Of a DNA stretch of 60,922 bases, positions 12,457-34,687 are shown in pieces (position 1 is the stretch's first letter; each line of letters begins with the position of its first letter). A program made the position numbers and the translations under genes. Source of the DNA: an uncultured bacterium (GTDB lineage: Bacteria; Actinomycetota; Coriobacteriia; Coriobacteriales; Eggerthellaceae); assembly GCA_947564525.1 (NCBI GenBank), contig CANOCK010000002.1, positions 1-60,922 on the forward strand, read 5' to 3'. Below the pieces are notes generated by a model. That model did no database searches, was not told the origin of the DNA, and saw only the letters and a list, made by a program, of their open reading frames with translations.

Positions 12457-15360
12457 ATGACCGCACCTGCCCGTACGTTACTGAGCACGTTCTGCGCCTT
12501 CCTGCTGGCGGCGTCGCTCGTGCCGGCTGCCGCACTCGCAGACGAAGCTGAGCCGACCGCGAGCACCGAGGCCGCAGCCGCCAACCCGACGCCCGACGGC
12601 GAGGACGCCCCCGCAGCCGACGCCGCTCCGACAGCCACCGAAGGGGAGCCCCAGGGCGCGCCCGCCGAGGAGCTCCCGGCCAGCGAGGACGCCGCCGAAG
12701 CTCCCGCGGCCAGCGCCGACGAGGGCCCCGACGCCATCGAGCTGGGCACTGTCGAGGGGCTGACCACCCTGCAGACCACCGTGCCCGAGGAGCAGTCCTC
12801 GCCGCTGTCCTCGTTCTTCAGCATGCTCAGCGGCCGCTCCACCGTGGAGGTCAAGCTGGCCTCCGGCAGCCACGAGCGCTGGATCGACCGCATCGACAAG
12901 GCGGGCCACGAGTACATCGTGCCGTTCTACCAGTCGCTCGTCGAGGCCAGCGACGGCGACGGCACGGCCGACTACCTCATCGACGACCAGTACCTCTCCA
13001 CCAAGGCCGAGGTGAACCCCATGGCCAAGGTGTCCGAGTCCTCCGAGGTGGGCGACGGGGTGTTCATCCCCAGCAAGGACGCCCCCTCCGCGTACTTCCC
13101 TTGCATCCTGGCGGCCAAGGTGCCCGTCTCCACCGGCTACCCCGATGCCCTGGTGCAGGCCTACGTCACCGAGGCCTACGGTGCCTTCGACCGCGACAAT
13201 CCGCAAGCATTCTGGCGCAACCGCCAGTTCGCCGTCACCGACGCCGTCACAACCATCGGCGACTATCGCTACTACGGCTTCATCCTGACCGCCGGCGTGA
13301 AGAACGACGACGGCAGCACCCGCGTGTGGACCCCGCGCGCCGCGGAGTACAGCTCCGCCAAGAGCATCAAGGACGCCATCAACCTGTACCACACGCGGCT
13401 GGACATCATCACCGACGACATGACCGCCGAGGACAAGGCCACCGAGTACTCCAAGGTGAAGTACTTCAACCAGTGGCTGGTCGACCACAACTCCTACAAC
13501 AGCAACAACCTCGACGCGCTGGAGCGCGCCGACTCCATGTACCCCTGGAGCGCCCTCAGCGCTCTGACCGGCATCGACGACGCCAACGACAAGCGGGCGC
13601 CGGTGTGCGAGGGCTACGCCCGGGCGATGCAGGCGCTCTGCCAGGAGGAGGGCGTCCCCTGCGTGCTGACCGACGGCGACGTGGGCGGGGGCGGCGCCAG
13701 CACGCCGCACATGTGGAACTACACCCGGGTGGAGGGCGCCTGGTACGGCGTGGACGTCACCTGGAACCACAAGAACAACCCCGAGCACTACCTGCTGAAG
13801 GGCGGCAAGGCGTTCCTGGACTCCCACCCGGCCACCAACCGCTTCGTCGCCACGGGCAGCTCCGGCTACCAGGGCCAGTCGTTCACCAACGGCCCTCAGC
13901 TGAGCGACAGCGACTACGTCTACGACGCTAACAAGGAAGAGCCCACCCTCACCCTGCCGAAGAACCTGAAGGCCACCTATGGCAGCACCCTGAGCAGCGT
14001 TTCCATCCCCACCGCCTCGGGCGACACGCCCGGCACCTGGTCGTGGAGCTCCCCTAACAACCCCGTGGGCGACGTGGGCACCAACGCCCATGCGGCCATC
14101 TTCACGCCCCAGGACACCAGCACCTACCGCGTGGTCACCCGCGACCTCTCCGTCCAGGTGACCGCCAAGGACGCCACCCCCACGGTGAAAGTGGAGGGCG
14201 CGCCGTTCTCCTACACCGGCAAGCCCATCACCCCTGCGCTGTCCGTCAGCGTGGACGGGGTGCTGCTGCCCAGCACCTCCTACGAGGCGGAGTACGCCGA
14301 CAACGTGGCCGTGGGCACCGCGACGGTCACCGTGAGCTCCATCACCGGCAACTACTCGTTCAGCGACGTGGAGGCCACCTTCGAGATCGTGAAGGCGCGC
14401 GACTGGCTGCGCTTCGCCGAGAGCCTGGAGGACGGCGCGGAGGTGACCGTGGGCGAAACCCTGGCCCTGAGCGCCTCAGGCGTCGAGGAAGCCGAGATCA
14501 CCTTCAGCATCGAGTCCGGCTCCGACATCGCCCGCCTGGTCACCGCCACGGGCATCACCCACCTGCGGCCCACGGCGGCAGGCACCATCACCGTGAAGGC
14601 CAGCGCGCCGGCCGGCGAGAGCTACGAGGCCGACTCCGCCACCTGCGAGGTCACCGCCGTGGCACCGGAGTTCACCGCGCCTGAGGGCCTGGTGACGCTG
14701 CCGGTGGTCGACGACAACTACCGCGTGGCAGCCATGAGCAACCTTGCGGACAAGTCCATCCAGAAGCTGACGGATGCCAAGACCGACCTCACCACCAAGC
14801 AGGCCATCGCCTTGGAGCTGATGCGAGGAGCCACCTCCGTCATGACCAAGGCCCGCGCCGACCAGACCGCCGTCTACGACTTCACGCTGTTCGGCCTCGA
14901 CGAGGACGGCGAATGGGTCGAGATGGACGGCGACAGCTTCCCCGAGGAGGGCATCGAGGTGCGGATGGGCTTCCCCAAGAAGGGCATGGCCCCCGAGACC
15001 CACGCCTTCGCCGTGGTGCACATGTTCACCGATAAGGGCAACGGGTTCAAGCCCGGCCAGATGGAGACCCCGGAGGTGACCATCGACAAGACCGGGCTGA
15101 GCTTCAAGCTGATGGGCTGCTCGCCGGTGACGGTCAGCTGGCTGGACGGCGACGAGGCGATTACCCACAAGGCCGGCCTGTCCAGCAGCAGCGCCGCTGG
15201 CACCGGCACCACGGGCAAGCTGGCCCAGACCGGCGACAGCCTGCCGATCGTGCCCATCGTCGTGGTCATCCTGATCGTGGCCGCGGCCTTGGTGGGCGTC
15301 GTGGCCTACCAGCGCCGCCGCAAGGGGCAGGACGACGAGCCTGGCCTCGACCAGCAGTAG
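12457..15360 (+). CDS. Cell-wall-anchored surface protein with transglutaminase-like domain (LAQTG)
   Basis: 967 residues with a signal peptide (LLSTFCAFLLAASLVPAAALADE), an acidic Ala/Glu/Pro-rich spacer, and a transglutaminase-like cysteine-protease domain around 330-470. The presumed catalytic triad is Cys in RAPVCEGYARAM, His in TPHMWNYTRV and Asp in YGVDVTWN. Ig-like beta domains follow. The C-terminus has LAQTGD, a hydrophobic helix (IVPIVVVILIVAAALVGVVAY) and RRRK, a sorting signal. The LAxTG form fits class E sortases of high-GC actinobacteria; no sortase is in the window. The ATG follows GAGGAGAA. It may crosslink or process cell-wall proteins, but the substrate is unknown. Confidence 0.88.
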   Translation: MTAPARTLLSTFCAFLLAASLVPAAALADEAEPTASTEAAAANPTPDGEDAPAADAAPTATEGEPQGAPAEELPASEDAAEAPAASADEGPDAIELGTVEGLTTLQTTVPEEQSSPLSSFFSMLSGRSTVEVKLASGSHERWIDRIDKAGHEYIVPFYQSLVEASDGDGTADYLIDDQYLSTKAEVNPMAKVSESSEVGDGVFIPSKDAPSAYFPCILAAKVPVSTGYPDALVQAYVTEAYGAFDRDNPQAFWRNRQFAVTDAVTTIGDYRYYGFILTAGVKNDDGSTRVWTPRAAEYSSAKSIKDAINLYHTRLDIITDDMTAEDKATEYSKVKYFNQWLVDHNSYNSNNLDALERADSMYPWSALSALTGIDDANDKRAPVCEGYARAMQALCQEEGVPCVLTDGDVGGGGASTPHMWNYTRVEGAWYGVDVTWNHKNNPEHYLLKGGKAFLDSHPATNRFVATGSSGYQGQSFTNGPQLSDSDYVYDANKEEPTLTLPKNLKATYGSTLSSVSIPTASGDTPGTWSWSSPNNPVGDVGTNAHAAIFTPQDTSTYRVVTRDLSVQVTAKDATPTVKVEGAPFSYTGKPITPALSVSVDGVLLPSTSYEAEYADNVAVGTATVTVSSITGNYSFSDVEATFEIVKARDWLRFAESLEDGAEVTVGETLALSASGVEEAEITFSIESGSDIARLVTATGITHLRPTAAGTITVKASAPAGESYEADSATCEVTAVAPEFTAPEGLVTLPVVDDNYRVAAMSNLADKSIQKLTDAKTDLTTKQAIALELMRGATSVMTKARADQTAVYDFTLFGLDEDGEWVEMDGDSFPEEGIEVRMGFPKKGMAPETHAFAVVHMFTDKGNGFKPGQMETPEVTIDKTGLSFKLMGCSPVTVSWLDGDEAITHKAGLSSSSAAGTGTTGKLAQTGDSLPIVPIVVVILIVAAALVGVVAYQRRRKGQDDEPGLDQQ

Positions 15361-19616: not shown

Positions 19617-19710
19617 GATGTCACCTTCACAACATAGGAGCCCACGAAGGATAGCTGGGACAAGGCAGCTTCGTTGCAGAATAGCACTTGGCTGAACAGG
19701 TCCTTCACCT
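19613..19710 (-). pseudogene. C-terminal fragment of an unknown gene fused to the P2-like pseudogene
   Basis: The frame reading KDLFSQVLFCNEAALSQLSF and ending YVVKVTS shares no similarity with the surface proteins. It begins where P2 homology stops (about 19711), so the junction looks like a deletion that joined two unrelated genes. It is translationally linked to the next small ORF by an ATGA overlap. Confidence 0.35.
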
Positions 19711-20681
19711 TGAATCGACGGAGAAGGAGTCCACCAGCGCGCCATGCGAAAGCGCGCCAGGCTCCACCGCCTCCGCGTGCGAAGCGATGCGGACAGCGCC
19801 CTGTCTGCCCCCGGGAATGGACAGGAGGCAAGTGAGTCCGGCGTCGTAGAGGACGCCGTCGTAGGAGGCGTAGGAGGGGCTCGCCGGGTCGACCTCGACC
19901 CGCTGCAGCGAGGGGACGCGCAGGGCGCGCGGGTCCACCGACGAGATGCTCGCCGGCAGCTCGACGGCCTCGGCCTCGCGGGAGGAGAAGGCGCCGGCGC
20001 CGATGGCGGCCACCGCGTACTCGACGCCGCACTAGGCCACGAAGGCGGGGACGGCCAAGGTCGTCGGCAGGGCGGCGCCCATGGCGGAGCCGTCATCGGC
20101 CTCACGTCTGGCATCGCCTGGGCCGAGGTCGGCCGCCAAGACTGCAGCGGCATCGCCCCCGATGGCCGGCGGCTCGTCACCTTGGGCGCCCGCGCCCTCC
20201 TTGCCCGGCGCCTCGGCGGCGCGAGCTCCCTGCCAGCCAGGCTCGACGGCGACGAGCTCCACCCGGCCCTCGCCGAGGAGGGCGTAGGTGAGGCCGTCGG
20301 CGGTGAAGGAGCCGACGAGCACATCGGGGGCAGCCCCCGGGGCGCCCTCGCCCCCGAGGGACGACAGCGCGACGTCGGCGCTGATGCAGGGCACGCCATC
20401 GGCCGTGGAGCACACGAGCGCCCCGGCCAGGAGCCCTGGCGTGGCGCCTGCGGCGGCCGGTTCGGCTGGTTGGCTTTTTTGGGATCGGTCGTCCCAGCCG
20501 GCCGTCAGGCCCGGATCAGAGGCTTGGGAGGAATCGCTCTGCCCGCCCCCGAGGTGCCTTCGGCGGCGCCAGCCAGCGCAGGCGCCAGGCCCAAGGCGAG
20601 GGCCAAGGTCAAAACTATGGGCAAGATGAATCCACGTGCAGGCGAGCGCAGTCGCCCTGCGGCGCATTTCCCGTTATATAT
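19711..20681 (-). pseudogene. Decayed paralogue of P2 (N-terminal third of a repeat protein)
   Basis: It aligns with the N-terminal part of P2: GSFTADGLTYALLGEGRVEL, then GRQGAVRIASHAEAVEPGAL. Four lesions are visible. The start codon is ATA (20679-20681) where P2 has ATG at the same distance from the GGGAAG ribosome site. The signal-peptide frame (FILPIVLTLALALGLAPALA) is out of frame with the body across the G tract, which here reads GGGGGCGGG. There is an in-frame TAG at 20032-20034. The gene ends at FSVD without any B-repeat. Its leader and promoter are still recognisably those of P2. Confidence 0.85.
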
Positions 20682-20752
20682 GGCTGCTTCCCTTTCCCGA
20701 CAGACGAAGCATTCCTATGCGGCTCGGCGGCGGCCCCATCCGGGCGGAGCAT

Positions 20753-24200: not shown

Positions 24201-27200
24201 GGCGTCGTAGGTCGCGGTGACGTTCGCGCTCTGGCCGCCCGATCCGCCATTCGCGTTGAAGCTCACCGTGTAGGTGTTCGGCGTCTCGGCCAGGTAGAGG
24301 TTGACGGTACCGCCGGTGGCGATGTTGTTGATGGCCGCCCCGAACCCGTACGTGGGGCTGGACTGCCACGCCGAGATGGCCCAGCCCTTGCCGGTGTAGC
24401 CCGTGGACTGGCCCGCGACGTTCCAGAAGTTGAACCTCCCGTCATAGGTCACCACCTGGTTGCCCAGGTAGCTCCCTCCCCGGCTGTGGTAGTTGATGGT
24501 GTAGGTGTTCGCCTGCCAATGGGCGTAGTAGGTGGTGTTGGCCGTGGGCAGGGCGGTGGAGGTGGTCACGCGCGTGCCGCCGCTCGCGGCGGTGTACCAG
24601 CCCAGGAACGTGTAGCCCGTCTTGGCGATGCGGGGCGCATCCCACACGGGCCACCCGACGTTGTTGAGCGTGAGGCCGGCCGCGTAGGTGGTGTCGCGGT
24701 AGTGCTCGCCCGTGGCGCCGTCGACAGTGCCCCCGTTGGGGTTCCATGTCGTGCGGATGGTGTTGCCCGACCACCGCGCGTACAGCGTGGTGTTGGAGGT
24801 CTTGTTGTAGCTGCGCGCCGATGCGCAGGCGGCCGTGTAGTATTGCGTCCCGCCGCTGGCCGCGCTGGTGTCGTACCAGCCCTGGAAGGTGTAGCCGGCG
24901 CGGGTGGGCTTGGCCGTCGAGATGCCTGGCATCGCGCTGTTGTAGGTCGCGGTGACGTTGGCGCTCTGGCCGCCCGAGCCGCCGTTGGGATTGAACGACA
25001 CGGTGTAGGTGTTCGCCGTCTCGGCCACGTAGAGGTTGACCTCGGCGCCGCTGGTGCTCGCCAGGTTCTTCACGGTCTGCCCGAAGCTGTAGGCCGCGGT
25101 CGTCTGGTTGGCGCTCTTCGCCCAGCCCTTGGCCGTGTAGCCAGCCGAGGTCCTGCCCGGGTCGGCGGCCAAGGCGTAGTTGCTGTCGTAGTCGACCCCC
25201 GCGCGGCTGAGCCTGTTGCCCGCCTTGTCATGGAAGTTGACCACGTACCTGATGGGCGACCAGCGGGCCCAAAGTGTCGTGTCAGAGGTCTTGTCCCAGT
25301 TCCGGGCGCTGCCGCCTGAAGAGTTGTAGTACTGCGTCCCCCCACTCGCAGCGTTGGTGTCGTAGTACCCCTGGAAGCTGTAGCCCGTGCGGGTAGGCAT
25401 CGTGGCGGAGGGCATAGCTTGCCCAGAGCTTGCTTGAACCGAACTAGTTCCCCCTGAACCGCCGTTGGCGTTCAGGGAAACGGTATTAGCCGAGCTCACC
25501 CACCGCTGGCCGGTGGGCGTGAGCCAGGTGTCAAAGCCATCGTCATCGCAGACGTACTTTTTCAGCGTCCCAGGAGCGACGTCGTTCCAGCTCCCAGAAT
25601 CTCCTTCGCGCATCTTCCAGCCAGTCGGAGCCCATGTATTGAGCTTGTTGCTGCTGATGAAAAGGGTTCTCTCTCGCTTCCCGCTAGCCGAAAAGGTAAA
25701 AGCTTGCCAAGCGCACAGCGAGTTGAGTGCATGGGGATAGTCACAGATCCAGCAGTCAGTCGTTCCATCACCAATGAAGAAGGTCACGTAGTAGTCGTCC
25801 CCGCCAGTGTTGACGTTCCACCACAGTTTCGTCCCAGCCGCTATTTCCTTCCAATGGCTCGTGTTGTTGTAGTAGTCGTTATAAGTAAGGGGATTATCTC
25901 CGGCCATGATGTAGAAAGAGTCGTGGGTGGCGCGGCTTGCTTGAGCATGCGTCATCTCAGCTTCCAAAGCCAAGGAGGAGGCCGATTCGTCGGTGCTGAG
26001 AGGAGAAACCCCAAACCCCAGCCGCTCCCACACTTGCGCGTCCGCCCCTTCGGGCAGCGCGACGGTCACGGCTTCGGGGTCGGCCGCGGGCGCGGCGTCC
26101 TCGGCGGTCGCTAGGGCCAGGGGCCGGCTGATCTGCGGCACGGCGCCCTCTTCTTCCGAAGGGGTGGAATCGGGGGCGCTGGCCGCAGGCACCTCGCTCA
26201 GGGCCTCGGGCGAGATGCTCTCCAGGCCCGCGGGCGCATTGATGCGCTCCAGCTGAGCGCATCCGGCAAGGGCACCGGCGGCGATGGCCGCGCAGCCCTC
26301 GCGGATGGTGATCTCGGTCGCGCCAGCAGGCACGGCGACCAAGGTCGTGCCGTCGGCGGTATAGAGCAGACCGTCCCAGGCAGAGAAAGCTGCGCTGCCC
26401 TCATCCACGGAGAAGGAGGCCACAGCTGCGCCATGCGAAAGCGCGCCAGGCTCCACCGCCTCCGCGTGCGAAAGGATGCGGACAGCGCCCTGTCTGCCCC
26501 CGGGAACGAGCAGAAGGCGGGTCTGGTCGGCGCTGTAGAGAGCGCCATCGTGAGAGGAGAATGCGCTGTTGGAGGGATCGACCTCGATGCGCTGGACCGC
26601 TGTCGCGCGGAAGGCGCGAGGATCGATGGAGGCCACCGTGGCCGGAAGGGCCACCATGTCGGCCCCGGCAGCGGCAAAGGCGTAGGCACCAAGGGTGGTC
26701 ACCGCGTAGTCGGCGCCCCCATAGGAGACACTGGCCGGCACGGCCAACGGAATCGGCTCGACTTCCGCGGCCTGGTCACCATCGCCGTCGGCCGCACCAG
26801 CGTCGGGCGCCGTAGCCACCAGGGCCGCCTCGCCCTCAGCGACGATGGCGTAGGTCAGCCCATCGACGGTGAAGGAGCCGACGACCGGCTCGGGCACGGG
26901 CGTCCCTTCGCCGCCGTCGCCGGCGGCCAAGGCCACGTCGGCGCTTACGCGGGCACCGGACCATTGGGCCAGCGCTACGGCCAGCATGGGTGCAGGAGCT
27001 GCGCCTTCTTCGGTTTTCTCGAAATTTTCGCTCGGTTGCCCCTCGCCGGCGCTCAGGGCCGATGCAAGGGCTGGGGAAGAATCGCTATGCCCCCCCCCCC
27101 GAGGCATTGTCTTCGACGGCGGCAGCCAGCATGGGCTCGAGCCCAGCGGCAAGCGTCATCGACAGGATGATGGAGAGTGCGCCTGTGCGGATAGCCGCGC

Positions 27201-27851: not shown

Positions 27852-29123
27852 CTACACGCCGAGCGCCCGAATCGGCACCACATGGACGCCATCTTCGCGC
27901 GGATAGCTGAAGCCCCCTGTGCCGGTCAGCACCATGAGGAACGAGGGCGCTGGCATCTTGGTCGTGTCTATGGCGCTTGCGAGGGACTTCAGGCTCTCTG
28001 CCCCTTCGCTTACGAGGTCCTCGCCGCCGAGTTTGATCTCCACCAGCCCGTAGCGGCCGTCGCGCAGGCGCACCACCGCATCGCACTCGCGGCCGGACTT
28101 GTCGCGGAAGTGAAGCACCTCTCCGTCCAGCCCGTCAGCGTAGGACCGCAGGTCGCGGATGCACAGCGTCTCGAAGACGAGCCCCATAGTGTTCAGGTCG
28201 GCGATGAGGGCTGCAGGCGTGGCCCCTAAGGCAGCCGTGGCGATGGAGGGGTCGACCAGGTGGCGGGTCGGAGTCGTGCGGATGGCCGCCTTGGACCGCA
28301 GGTTCGGATTCCACGCCTGCAGGTCCTCTATGACGAAGAGCTTGCGCAGCGCCTCGACGTACTCCAGGAAGGAGGACTCGCCTATTTCCGTGCCAGCCTC
28401 CACCAGGTCCGCCCGCATGCTCGCCAACGACCCTTGGGATGCAGCCATGCGCGCATAGGAGCGAAGGAGCGCCCGGGCCACATGGGGGCTCCTCTTCACG
28501 CCATCCACCTTGGACACGTCCACCTCGGTGATGGCGTCGACGTAATCGATCGCTTGCTGGAGGGCCACGCGCCCCTCCAGCTCGGCCGCCTTCGGCCAGC
28601 CACCACGGCACATCAGGAACGCCAGCTCCTCCAGCCCGTCATCGCAGGAAGCCACCGGCACAGGATTGCCAGCGAAAAGGCTCCCCAGGGACACCTCGCC
28701 TGTCGAGTCCAGCGACTCCATGAGAGACATGGTGCGCATCTTCATGCGAGCGATGCGCCCCGTTCCGGTATGCTCCACCTCGTCCAGGTTCGGGGGAGTG
28801 CTCGATCCCGTGAGGATGAACTGGCCGAGCTCGTCGCGCTGGTCCACCTCGAAGCGCACCGCGTCCCACAGGCTCGGAGCCTCCTGCCACTCGTCGATGA
28901 GCCGCGGCGTTGCGCCTTTGAGCAGCTGGTCGGGCGCTATCTGGGCGAGCCGCCGGTTCTGGTCGCGCGTGCGTGGGTCTTGCATATACAACACCGAGCG
29001 GGCCACCCGCTCAGCGGTGCTGGTCTTGCCACACCATTTTGGGCCCTCTACGAGCACGGCGCCTTTTGTCTGGAGTCGCCAGGATAGGATGTCGTCGCAC
29101 ACTCGCTTTAGATAAGTTTTCAT
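27852..29123 (-). CDS. AAA ATPase with DUF4143 domain (copy 1)
   Basis: 423 residues. The N-terminal AAA_14 ATPase has Walker A GPKWCGKTSTAE, Walker B RLIDEWQEAP and sensor FILTGSSTPP. The middle carries ARMKMRTMSLMES and FLMCRGGWPKAAE, typical of the family. The C-terminal DUF4143 region has HFRDKSGRECDAVVRLRDGR and LVEIKLGG, a restriction-endonuclease-like D...ExK pattern. The family is widespread, often multicopy and functionally unresolved. The ATG at 29123 follows AGCAGG at 9 bases, while the longer frame from 29180 runs into the repeat array. A four-unit 23-bp array lies 38 bp upstream. It sits between P3 and P2 on the same strand. Confidence 0.88.
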   Translation of the reverse strand: MKTYLKRVCDDILSWRLQTKGAVLVEGPKWCGKTSTAERVARSVLYMQDPRTRDQNRRLAQIAPDQLLKGATPRLIDEWQEAPSLWDAVRFEVDQRDELGQFILTGSSTPPNLDEVEHTGTGRIARMKMRTMSLMESLDSTGEVSLGSLFAGNPVPVASCDDGLEELAFLMCRGGWPKAAELEGRVALQQAIDYVDAITEVDVSKVDGVKRSPHVARALLRSYARMAASQGSLASMRADLVEAGTEIGESSFLEYVEALRKLFVIEDLQAWNPNLRSKAAIRTTPTRHLVDPSIATAALGATPAALIADLNTMGLVFETLCIRDLRSYADGLDGEVLHFRDKSGRECDAVVRLRDGRYGLVEIKLGGEDLVSEGAESLKSLASAIDTTKMPAPSFLMVLTGTGGFSYPREDGVHVVPIRALGV

Positions 29124-29160
29124 TGCTGTTGACCTGCTGTTTCTCTTGAGAGAATAACGC

Positions 29161-29252
29161 ACCACGGTAGTTGGCGACATTTTACCACGGTACTTGGCGT
29201 GATTTCAGCACGGTAGTTGGCGAGCTTTTACCACGGTAGTTGGCATGGGTTC
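29161..29252 (-). repeat. Four 23-bp tandem repeats upstream of ATPase 1 (iteron-like)
   Basis: Each unit begins A(C/G)CACGGTA(G/C)TTGGC, followed by about 8 variable bases rich in T. Units start at 29161, 29184, 29207 and 29230. The distance from the array to the ATPase start is 38 bp. It is too regular and short-spaced for CRISPR and looks like an operator or iteron cluster. Confidence 0.9.
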
Positions 29253-33382: not shown

Positions 33383-34687
33383 TCACGCTCCCAGACTGCA
33401 GATCGGCACTACGTAGACTCCATCCGGGCGCTGGTAGGCCGCCTCTCCTACCCCTGTCAAGACGCACAGGAAGCTCGGCGGTACCATCCTCGACGCCTTG
33501 GATTCGAGCAGCTTGCCCTGCATCCGCAGCAGGGTCCTTGCCGCCTCATCGACCTTCGCTTGGCTCAGCTTCACCTCGAACGCCCCCCATCGCCCATCGG
33601 CCCGTTCGACCACCGCATCAACTTCGAGCCCCGAATCGTCACGGTAGTAGCGCAAGGGGGTGCTCGCTGCGTCAGGAAGGGCGCGCGCGTAGACGTCCAG
33701 GTCGCGCATGCAGAGGTTCTCGAAGGCGAGCCCGAAGGTCTGCCAGTCCATCAAGAGCGAGGCTGGGGACATCCCCATGAGCCCGACCGCGATGGACGGG
33801 TCGGCGAAGTACCGCTTGGGCTTCGTCCTCATCCGCTTCGGAGAGCGCGAGGCGGGAACCCACCCCGGCACCTCGTCCACCATGTAGAGCCGCCCCAGGA
33901 GGGCTACGAGCTCGGAGACCTGCCGCAGCTGGCCGTCGGGCACCTTCTCGCCCTCCCCCAAGGCGAAGGCGTCTCGCGCGAGGGTCAGGTTCGTCGAGGA
34001 CTGCCCCAGGTTGCGGGCAAGGGAAACGGCGACGCGCTGAGCCAGCGAGGAGTCCCCGCCAAGTCGCGGCACGCTCTTCTCGAATATGGAAGCCAGGTAC
34101 TCCCGCACGACCACCTGGGCATCCTCCGGAGCTGCCATCTGCTGCTCAGGCCATCCGCCACGGCATACCAGCTTGGCGATCTGCTCGATGCCGCCCTCGC
34201 ATTGGGTCGGGGCGAAGGCGCCGTCGAAGAGGGCCGCGAGGCTCACGAAGCCAGAGGAGTCGCCCGATTCCTGGAGCGTCATGGGATGCATGCGGATGCG
34301 CCCTATGCGACCGGCGCCGCTGTGGCTCACGGCGTCATCCGAAGGCGTGGAAGAGCCGGTCAGCAGCCAGAGGCCCTTCTCGCCAGCGGCGCCGTCGACC
34401 GCATGGCGGACGGTGTCCCAGATGGCAGGGACTCGCTGCCATTCGTCGATGACGTGGGGAGGCTCTCCTATGAGCGCATAGCCTGGGTCGGCCGTAGCCA
34501 CTTCGAGGTTGCTTCCCCGGTCGACGTAGGTGACGCTCCGACCGTGGGCGAGCGACGACCAAGTCTTGCCGCACCATTTGGTGCCCGATACCTCCACCGC
34601 TCCGAACAGCCGGAGGTACCGCTCTATCTGAGCGTCTACGATGCGCGGCTTGTAAGTTGAGGGTCGCAAGGTTCCTTCGTCAACCAT
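33383..34687 (-). CDS. AAA ATPase with DUF4143 domain (copy 2)
   Basis: 434 residues, same family as the gene at 27852 but well diverged. Walker A is GTKWCGKTWSS, Walker B HVIDEWQRVP, sensor WLLTGSSTPS, then KLVCRGGWPEQQ, and C-terminal DDSGLEVDAVVERADGRW with AFEVKLSQAKVDE. The ATG at 34687 follows AGGAGGAGCG. A four-unit 23-bp array begins 35 bp upstream, and direct copies of a second array flank the gene on both sides. The function is unresolved; hypotheses include a regulator or defence-type switch acting at the arrays. Confidence 0.88.
   Translation of the reverse strand: MVDEGTLRPSTYKPRIVDAQIERYLRLFGAVEVSGTKWCGKTWSSLAHGRSVTYVDRGSNLEVATADPGYALIGEPPHVIDEWQRVPAIWDTVRHAVDGAAGEKGLWLLTGSSTPSDDAVSHSGAGRIGRIRMHPMTLQESGDSSGFVSLAALFDGAFAPTQCEGGIEQIAKLVCRGGWPEQQMAAPEDAQVVVREYLASIFEKSVPRLGGDSSLAQRVAVSLARNLGQSSTNLTLARDAFALGEGEKVPDGQLRQVSELVALLGRLYMVDEVPGWVPASRSPKRMRTKPKRYFADPSIAVGLMGMSPASLLMDWQTFGLAFENLCMRDLDVYARALPDAASTPLRYYRDDSGLEVDAVVERADGRWGAFEVKLSQAKVDEAARTLLRMQGKLLESKASRMVPPSFLCVLTGVGEAAYQRPDGVYVVPICSLGA

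Follow-up and report, generated by a model that had tools for sequence, protein, structure and literature searches.

The window analysed here is a whole stretch of 60,922 nucleotides from an uncultured gut bacterium of the Eggerthellaceae; its positions are used throughout. Its minus strand carries exactly 11 consecutive G at 27100-27090 (sequence context GAAGACAATGCCTC-GGGGGGGGGGG-CATAGCGATTCTTCC), the sole homopolymer of more than six bases in these 60.9 kb. The run separates two coding segments of a gene that we refer to as P2. Upstream of it lies the signal-peptide coding segment (27219-27101, minus strand), which begins at ATG 27219, 119 nt before the tract; this start codon is preceded by an RBS-like GGGAAGGGAAG and has GGGAAGGGAAGCAACC upstream. 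The frame opened by the ATG gives a 44-residue product with a typical signal peptide, MKTGNRRAAIRTGALSIILSMTLAAGLEPMLAAAVEDNASGGGA (signal peptides here and below were identified by visual inspection and a simple script rather than a dedicated predictor), and ends at codon 45 in a TAG (27087-27085). Downstream lies the P2 body (27089-21201, minus strand), whose open frame spans 27152-21201 and encodes 1,983 aa. The preliminary description had placed the tract just past the signal peptide, with the two frames one base apart, and our translations agree with it: 11 G lead to the stop at codon 45, and 10 or 13 G join the frames into a continuous protein. A single-base change at the tract thus toggles between a full-length product and an early stop, and the locus has a homopolymer of the kind that characterizes contingency loci, which is at least eight bases long and lies within a coding region or at its 5′ end.

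The P2 body consists of a BspA/LRR_5-like N-terminal domain, eight List_Bact/Flg_new (InlB B-type) repeats, and a C-terminal domain that is conserved in the paralogs. The Pfam family PF09479 (Flg_new/List_Bact) matches the body in eight stretches with 251.5 bits (curated cut-off 27), and the List_Bact repeats match TIGR02543 as well; the match to the BspA-type leucine-rich repeat family PF13306 is weak (25.0 bits vs. a curated cut-off of 27.7). Domain searches returned no match of P2 to a pilin-type family, and no LPXTG is visible in its translation, which ends in ...KVVFTVQGLW. An AlphaFold model of the C-terminal domain, aimed at the mode of anchoring, was uninformative (pLDDT 31). The signal peptide and the List_Bact/BspA-type repeats are those of a putative surface protein, and we infer that the P2 product is exposed at the cell surface. 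Elsewhere in the window, a transglutaminase-like secreted protein (12457-15360, plus strand) has an LAQTG-type sorting end, a motif that is absent from P2.

P2 belongs to a very large family. The assembly to which it belongs (1.93 Mb in 175 contigs, 85.8% complete) has the N-terminal domain at ~50 sites, and matches to the repeats are far more numerous. Two paralogs in the window, both on the minus strand, lack a G tract: one of 1,054 aa (32831-29667), which has a signal peptide of its own and is one of ~45 tract-less copies in the genome, and one of 1,760 aa with InlB/List_Bact repeats (8495-3213). Among the first 40 paralog starts examined in this genome, 37 have no G tract of at least eight bases; a tract in every paralog was rejected as a general rule, given the ~45 copies of the N-terminal domain without one. 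Many of the tract-less paralogs have near-identical signal-peptide segments in common (MRAPANPPAKPLGRLAL...; ~45 loci, e.g., L053, L059, L062, L073, and L075), which suggests recent duplication or gene conversion across the family. In the same-species comparison against genome contigs, the best relative, from an uncultured Eggerthellaceae metagenome-assembled genome, is only 37% identical, and viral contigs gave no match. Two AAA_14/DUF4143-type ATPase genes on the minus strand of the window (27852-29180, assigned by Pfam, and 33383-34687, assigned by sequence resemblance) are interleaved with the surface-protein genes beside gyrA and gyrB.

A decayed member of the tract subfamily of P2 lies directly downstream from it (minus strand, 19693-20690, the upper limit being approximate). 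This paralog is truncated, has ATA in place of the start codon, and contains an in-frame stop. Its tract at the site homologous to that of P2 is interrupted, as the preliminary description had noted: it reads GGGGGCGGG (20550-20542), with a C breaking the G run. The signal-peptide and body frames of this copy are likewise offset at GGGGGCGGG, and the copy is locked OFF.

We listed all tracts of eight or more G in the genome, 24 in total, and read each in three frames (all tract lengths in this study are as read from the assemblies). Eight of them sit 116-131 nt past the signal-peptide ATG of a member of the P2 family, at sites where uniform placement would predict ~0.05 tracts, an estimate that ignores the shared ancestry of the paralogs. 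The N-terminal regions that follow these tracts are only 28%-55% identical to P2. In one of the eight genes, C28 (G10), the signal peptide and body form one continuous frame (ON); the other seven are out of frame (OFF), namely, P2 and C22 (G11 each), two copies of C27 with identical flanks (G8 each), and C51, C99, and C101 (G8 each). The direction of the offset varies: P2 and C22 have one G too many, and the G8 genes have one too few. That the tract would be specific to the functional copy, as had been proposed, thus fails as a general statement, since seven other paralogs carry it; what stands is that the dead neighbor has lost its pure tract. The remaining 16 tracts do not lie behind signal peptides of the P2 family. 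Several loci passed by the automatic signal-peptide filter (L107, L141, L146, L150, L155, and others) proved on reading to be false positives and were dismissed. One tract outside the surface-protein family, a G9 inside an apparent coding region (L089; G000:C3:40148, minus strand), has a frame that seems to shift across the run.

The length of the run carries no significance of its own, because in 58 out of 100 dinucleotide shuffles of the window, which is rich in G, G9 matches are as numerous as in the real sequence. By itself, the run is no rarer than expected by chance in this window. The evidence is instead the position and conservation of the P2 tract.

Tracts at the homologous site occur well beyond this genome. 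In the only other genome compared from the genus (G001, 98% complete), which has 28 tracts of eight or more G, two homologs carry them behind signal peptides: a G9 before a frame of 2,193 codons and a G10 before a frame of 1,442 codons, both OFF. In the same genome, a G13 lies just upstream of the start of a gene resembling LysR-type regulators (L160 and L276; G001:C26:9045), which on this sequence feature is possibly phase-variable.

A profile of the tract subfamily run against 138 genomes of the family revealed strong expansions in other genera. In two of these, G088 and G093, G10 to G14 tracts stand at the homologous site in 20 genes, six of them in frame; these counts cover the copies examined (seven and 13, respectively). 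The seven genes read in G088 (3.9 Mb, two contigs) comprise G13 OFF, G10 OFF, G14 ON, G11 OFF, G11 ON, and G10 OFF, together with a gene that has two consecutive tracts, G11 and then G10, and is OFF overall. Five tract genes of this genome, with frames of 1,894-3,157 codons, form a tandem array of ~40 kb that is followed by a sixth gene without a tract. Each of the five giant genes in the array (L290-L293; C2:1824000-1903600) has a signal peptide and a tract of G10 to G14.

The 13 genes read in G093 (3.1 Mb) have tracts of G10 to G13, with four ON and nine OFF. Two close copies, L239 (G13, OFF) and L240 (G11, ON), are 95% identical over the 150 nt upstream of the tract and 92% identical over the 100 nt downstream. 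Several G093 genes (L279, L280, L282, L283, and L285) have a second tract of G11 to G12, located 299-387 nt past the first, and three of the five genes examined are out of frame there too. Several ends of G093 contigs (C10, C16, C27, C28, and C45) fall at or near G tracts, as is expected if the tracts are repeated or length-polymorphic.

Two further single cases were found in other genera (G068 and G115). Over all 32 first tracts examined, seven are in frame, a fraction compatible with a random one third (P = 0.12). We also searched the 138 genomes for G tracts with a Ser-Glu/Lys-Pro motif behind them and obtained matches in 24; those outside G001, G088, and G093 have, on reading, mostly a different layout. 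In the paralogs, the sister species, and the two other genera, the tract is thus retained across diverged flanks, and close copies differ in its length, as expected of contingency loci.

Compared with six intact paralogs, the P2 body has dN/dS values of 0.39-0.53 over 978-1421 codons. These values are no higher than those of two further pairs of copies, intact and without a tract, which gave 0.56-0.57 in the same comparison. Judged from these comparisons, the constraint on the P2 body is similar to that on intact copies, in keeping with switching of the gene rather than its abandonment.

This bears on whether P2, like the neighbor that it adjoins, might simply be an early-stage pseudogene that carries a frameshift. 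The clear decay of the copy at 19693-20690, with its interrupted tract, and the OFF state of P2 in the assembly agree with such a history; it is nonetheless highly improbable, given that 1,983 codons are still open and dN/dS (0.39-0.53) does not exceed that of intact pairs. It would also require nine out of 10 genes in the genus, and most of those elsewhere, to be decaying at exactly one and the same site. An internal start of translation within the body frame, for example, at TTG 27152, which would yield a protein without the P2 signal peptide and make the upstream peptide irrelevant, seems to us scarcely credible. The body frame does reach upstream past the tract to 27152, but it contains no signal peptide, ATG 27219 is preceded by the RBS-like sequence, and a single frame spans signal peptide and body in C28, the paralog that is ON.

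An error of sequencing or assembly in the homopolymer, with a true tract that is in frame and a P2 that is always expressed, is a further alternative. Long runs of G are prone to error, a study of Bifidobacterium breve (PMC9187656) noted artefacts of Illumina sequencing at such tracts, and the assembly used here is fragmented (175 contigs) and 85.8% complete. We nevertheless consider such an error very unlikely, since the same offset is found in independent genes, in a sister species whose genome is 98% complete, and in another genus, in a genome of two contigs, and since the offsets run in both directions (P2 and C22 vs. the G8 genes). Even if the true length were in frame, a long tract would remain at a conserved site. 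Homopolymer runs can also be slippery for polymerases and ribosomes, and if transcription slipped or ribosomes shifted frame at the tract in a programmed manner, a fixed out-of-frame gene would yield some full-length protein. With 25 out of the 32 assembled copies out of frame, this has some appeal; however, the shift needed varies by gene (+1 or −1), some copies are in frame, and the near-identical L239 and L240 differ by two bases, whereas a programmed shift would hold one length. As the explanation of the tract it is very unlikely; it might still make a switch leaky.

Slipped-strand phase variation of a multigene family of putative surface proteins is, on the sequence evidence, by far the best explanation for the P2 tract and very probably the right one. 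It is favored by the conserved place of the tract, its pure G composition and variable length, the offsets in both directions, the existence of in-frame copies, and the intact bodies. The ON/OFF layout proposed in the preliminary description gains support from the presence of the tract in eight paralogs as well as in a sister species and other genera; its lengths are spread across the frames, and bodies behind out-of-frame tracts are intact and under constraint. One point against a switch is that five of the eight tracts in the genome are G8, all off by the same one base and two of them identical duplicates, a narrower choice of lengths than might be expected from an active switch; slippage should be slower at short tracts than at G11. 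Gene conversion between similar paralogs could also move tracts.

According to the slipped-strand model, the tract directly behind the signal peptide would mispair during replication and change by one base, shifting the body frame into register with the signal peptide or out of it, and the state would be read out at translation. The in-frame state would give one long secreted protein of ~2000 residues; in the out-of-frame state, translation would halt soon past the tract and nothing would be exported. The assembled P2, with its G11, would represent the OFF state. The model implies that tract length would change within a strain.

The nearest proven counterpart is a pilus switch in B. breve UCC2003, where a Sec-signal ORF and an LPXTG pilin body ORF are parted by a G tract in bbr_0113 and bbr_1889, tract length decides whether they are read as one ORF, and mixtures of G11 and G12 have been measured in culture (PMC9187656). 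Like P2, it has a G tract of ~11-12 between a Sec-signal ORF and the body ORF of a surface protein, in an actinobacterial gut commensal. It differs in that the B. breve genes are LPXTG pilins that head sortase operons, with one tract per cluster, whereas P2 is a giant BspA/InlB-repeat protein with no LPXTG end seen and with eight tract paralogs in one genome. Neisseria pilC, the classical Gram-negative parallel, whose tract lies in the signal-peptide region, resembles P2 in that a poly-G tract inside the reading frame switches a surface adhesion factor ON and OFF by frameshift, but it has two gene copies, belongs to a Gram-negative organism, and encodes an unrelated protein family. The pilC poly-G tract is genic, with a range of 9-20 (PMC5953494, citing Jonsson et al. 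1991). As for the repeats, P2 has the type of the internalin B-repeat proteins (List_Bact_rpt/Flg_new; PF09479, TIGR02543) in common with them, in eight units, which implies no internalin function.

Within the Eggerthellaceae, diversity-generating systems of prophages have been described (PMC8778435), and Eggerthella lenta switches its capsule through a megabase DNA inversion (PMC13174815). The capsule switch shares with P2 the bacterial family and the phase variation of the cell surface but its mechanism is inversion rather than slippage in a homopolymer, a word that is absent from the paper on it (PMC13174815). In the literature searched, which excluded most subscription journals, we found neither homopolymer phase variation in Eggerthellaceae nor a target family of the P2 type and its spread as a G-tract switch. 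P2 is, in these terms, a known switch mechanism in a new protein family and a new bacterial family.

Taken more broadly, we think it reasonably likely that Eggerthellaceae possess a combinatorial phase-variable surface coat, formed by large families of giant repeat proteins that stand in tandem in some genera, each with a G-tract switch behind its signal peptide and, in one genus, with two serial switches that must both be in frame. Annotation of tract genes as pseudogenes, or with a start after the tract, would then be misleading. At least eight paralogs in the genome carry independent tracts; if each switches a giant surface protein independently of the others, any clonal population would be a mosaic of cells that differ in the subset of surface proteins they display. 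Eggerthellaceae are common gut residents, and the type of protein suggests that the benefit may lie in varying what hosts or phages see, whether through adhesion, antigenicity, or phage receptors. If so, the switches would matter for how members of this family adhere to the host, how the immune system recognizes them, and how sensitive they are to phages.
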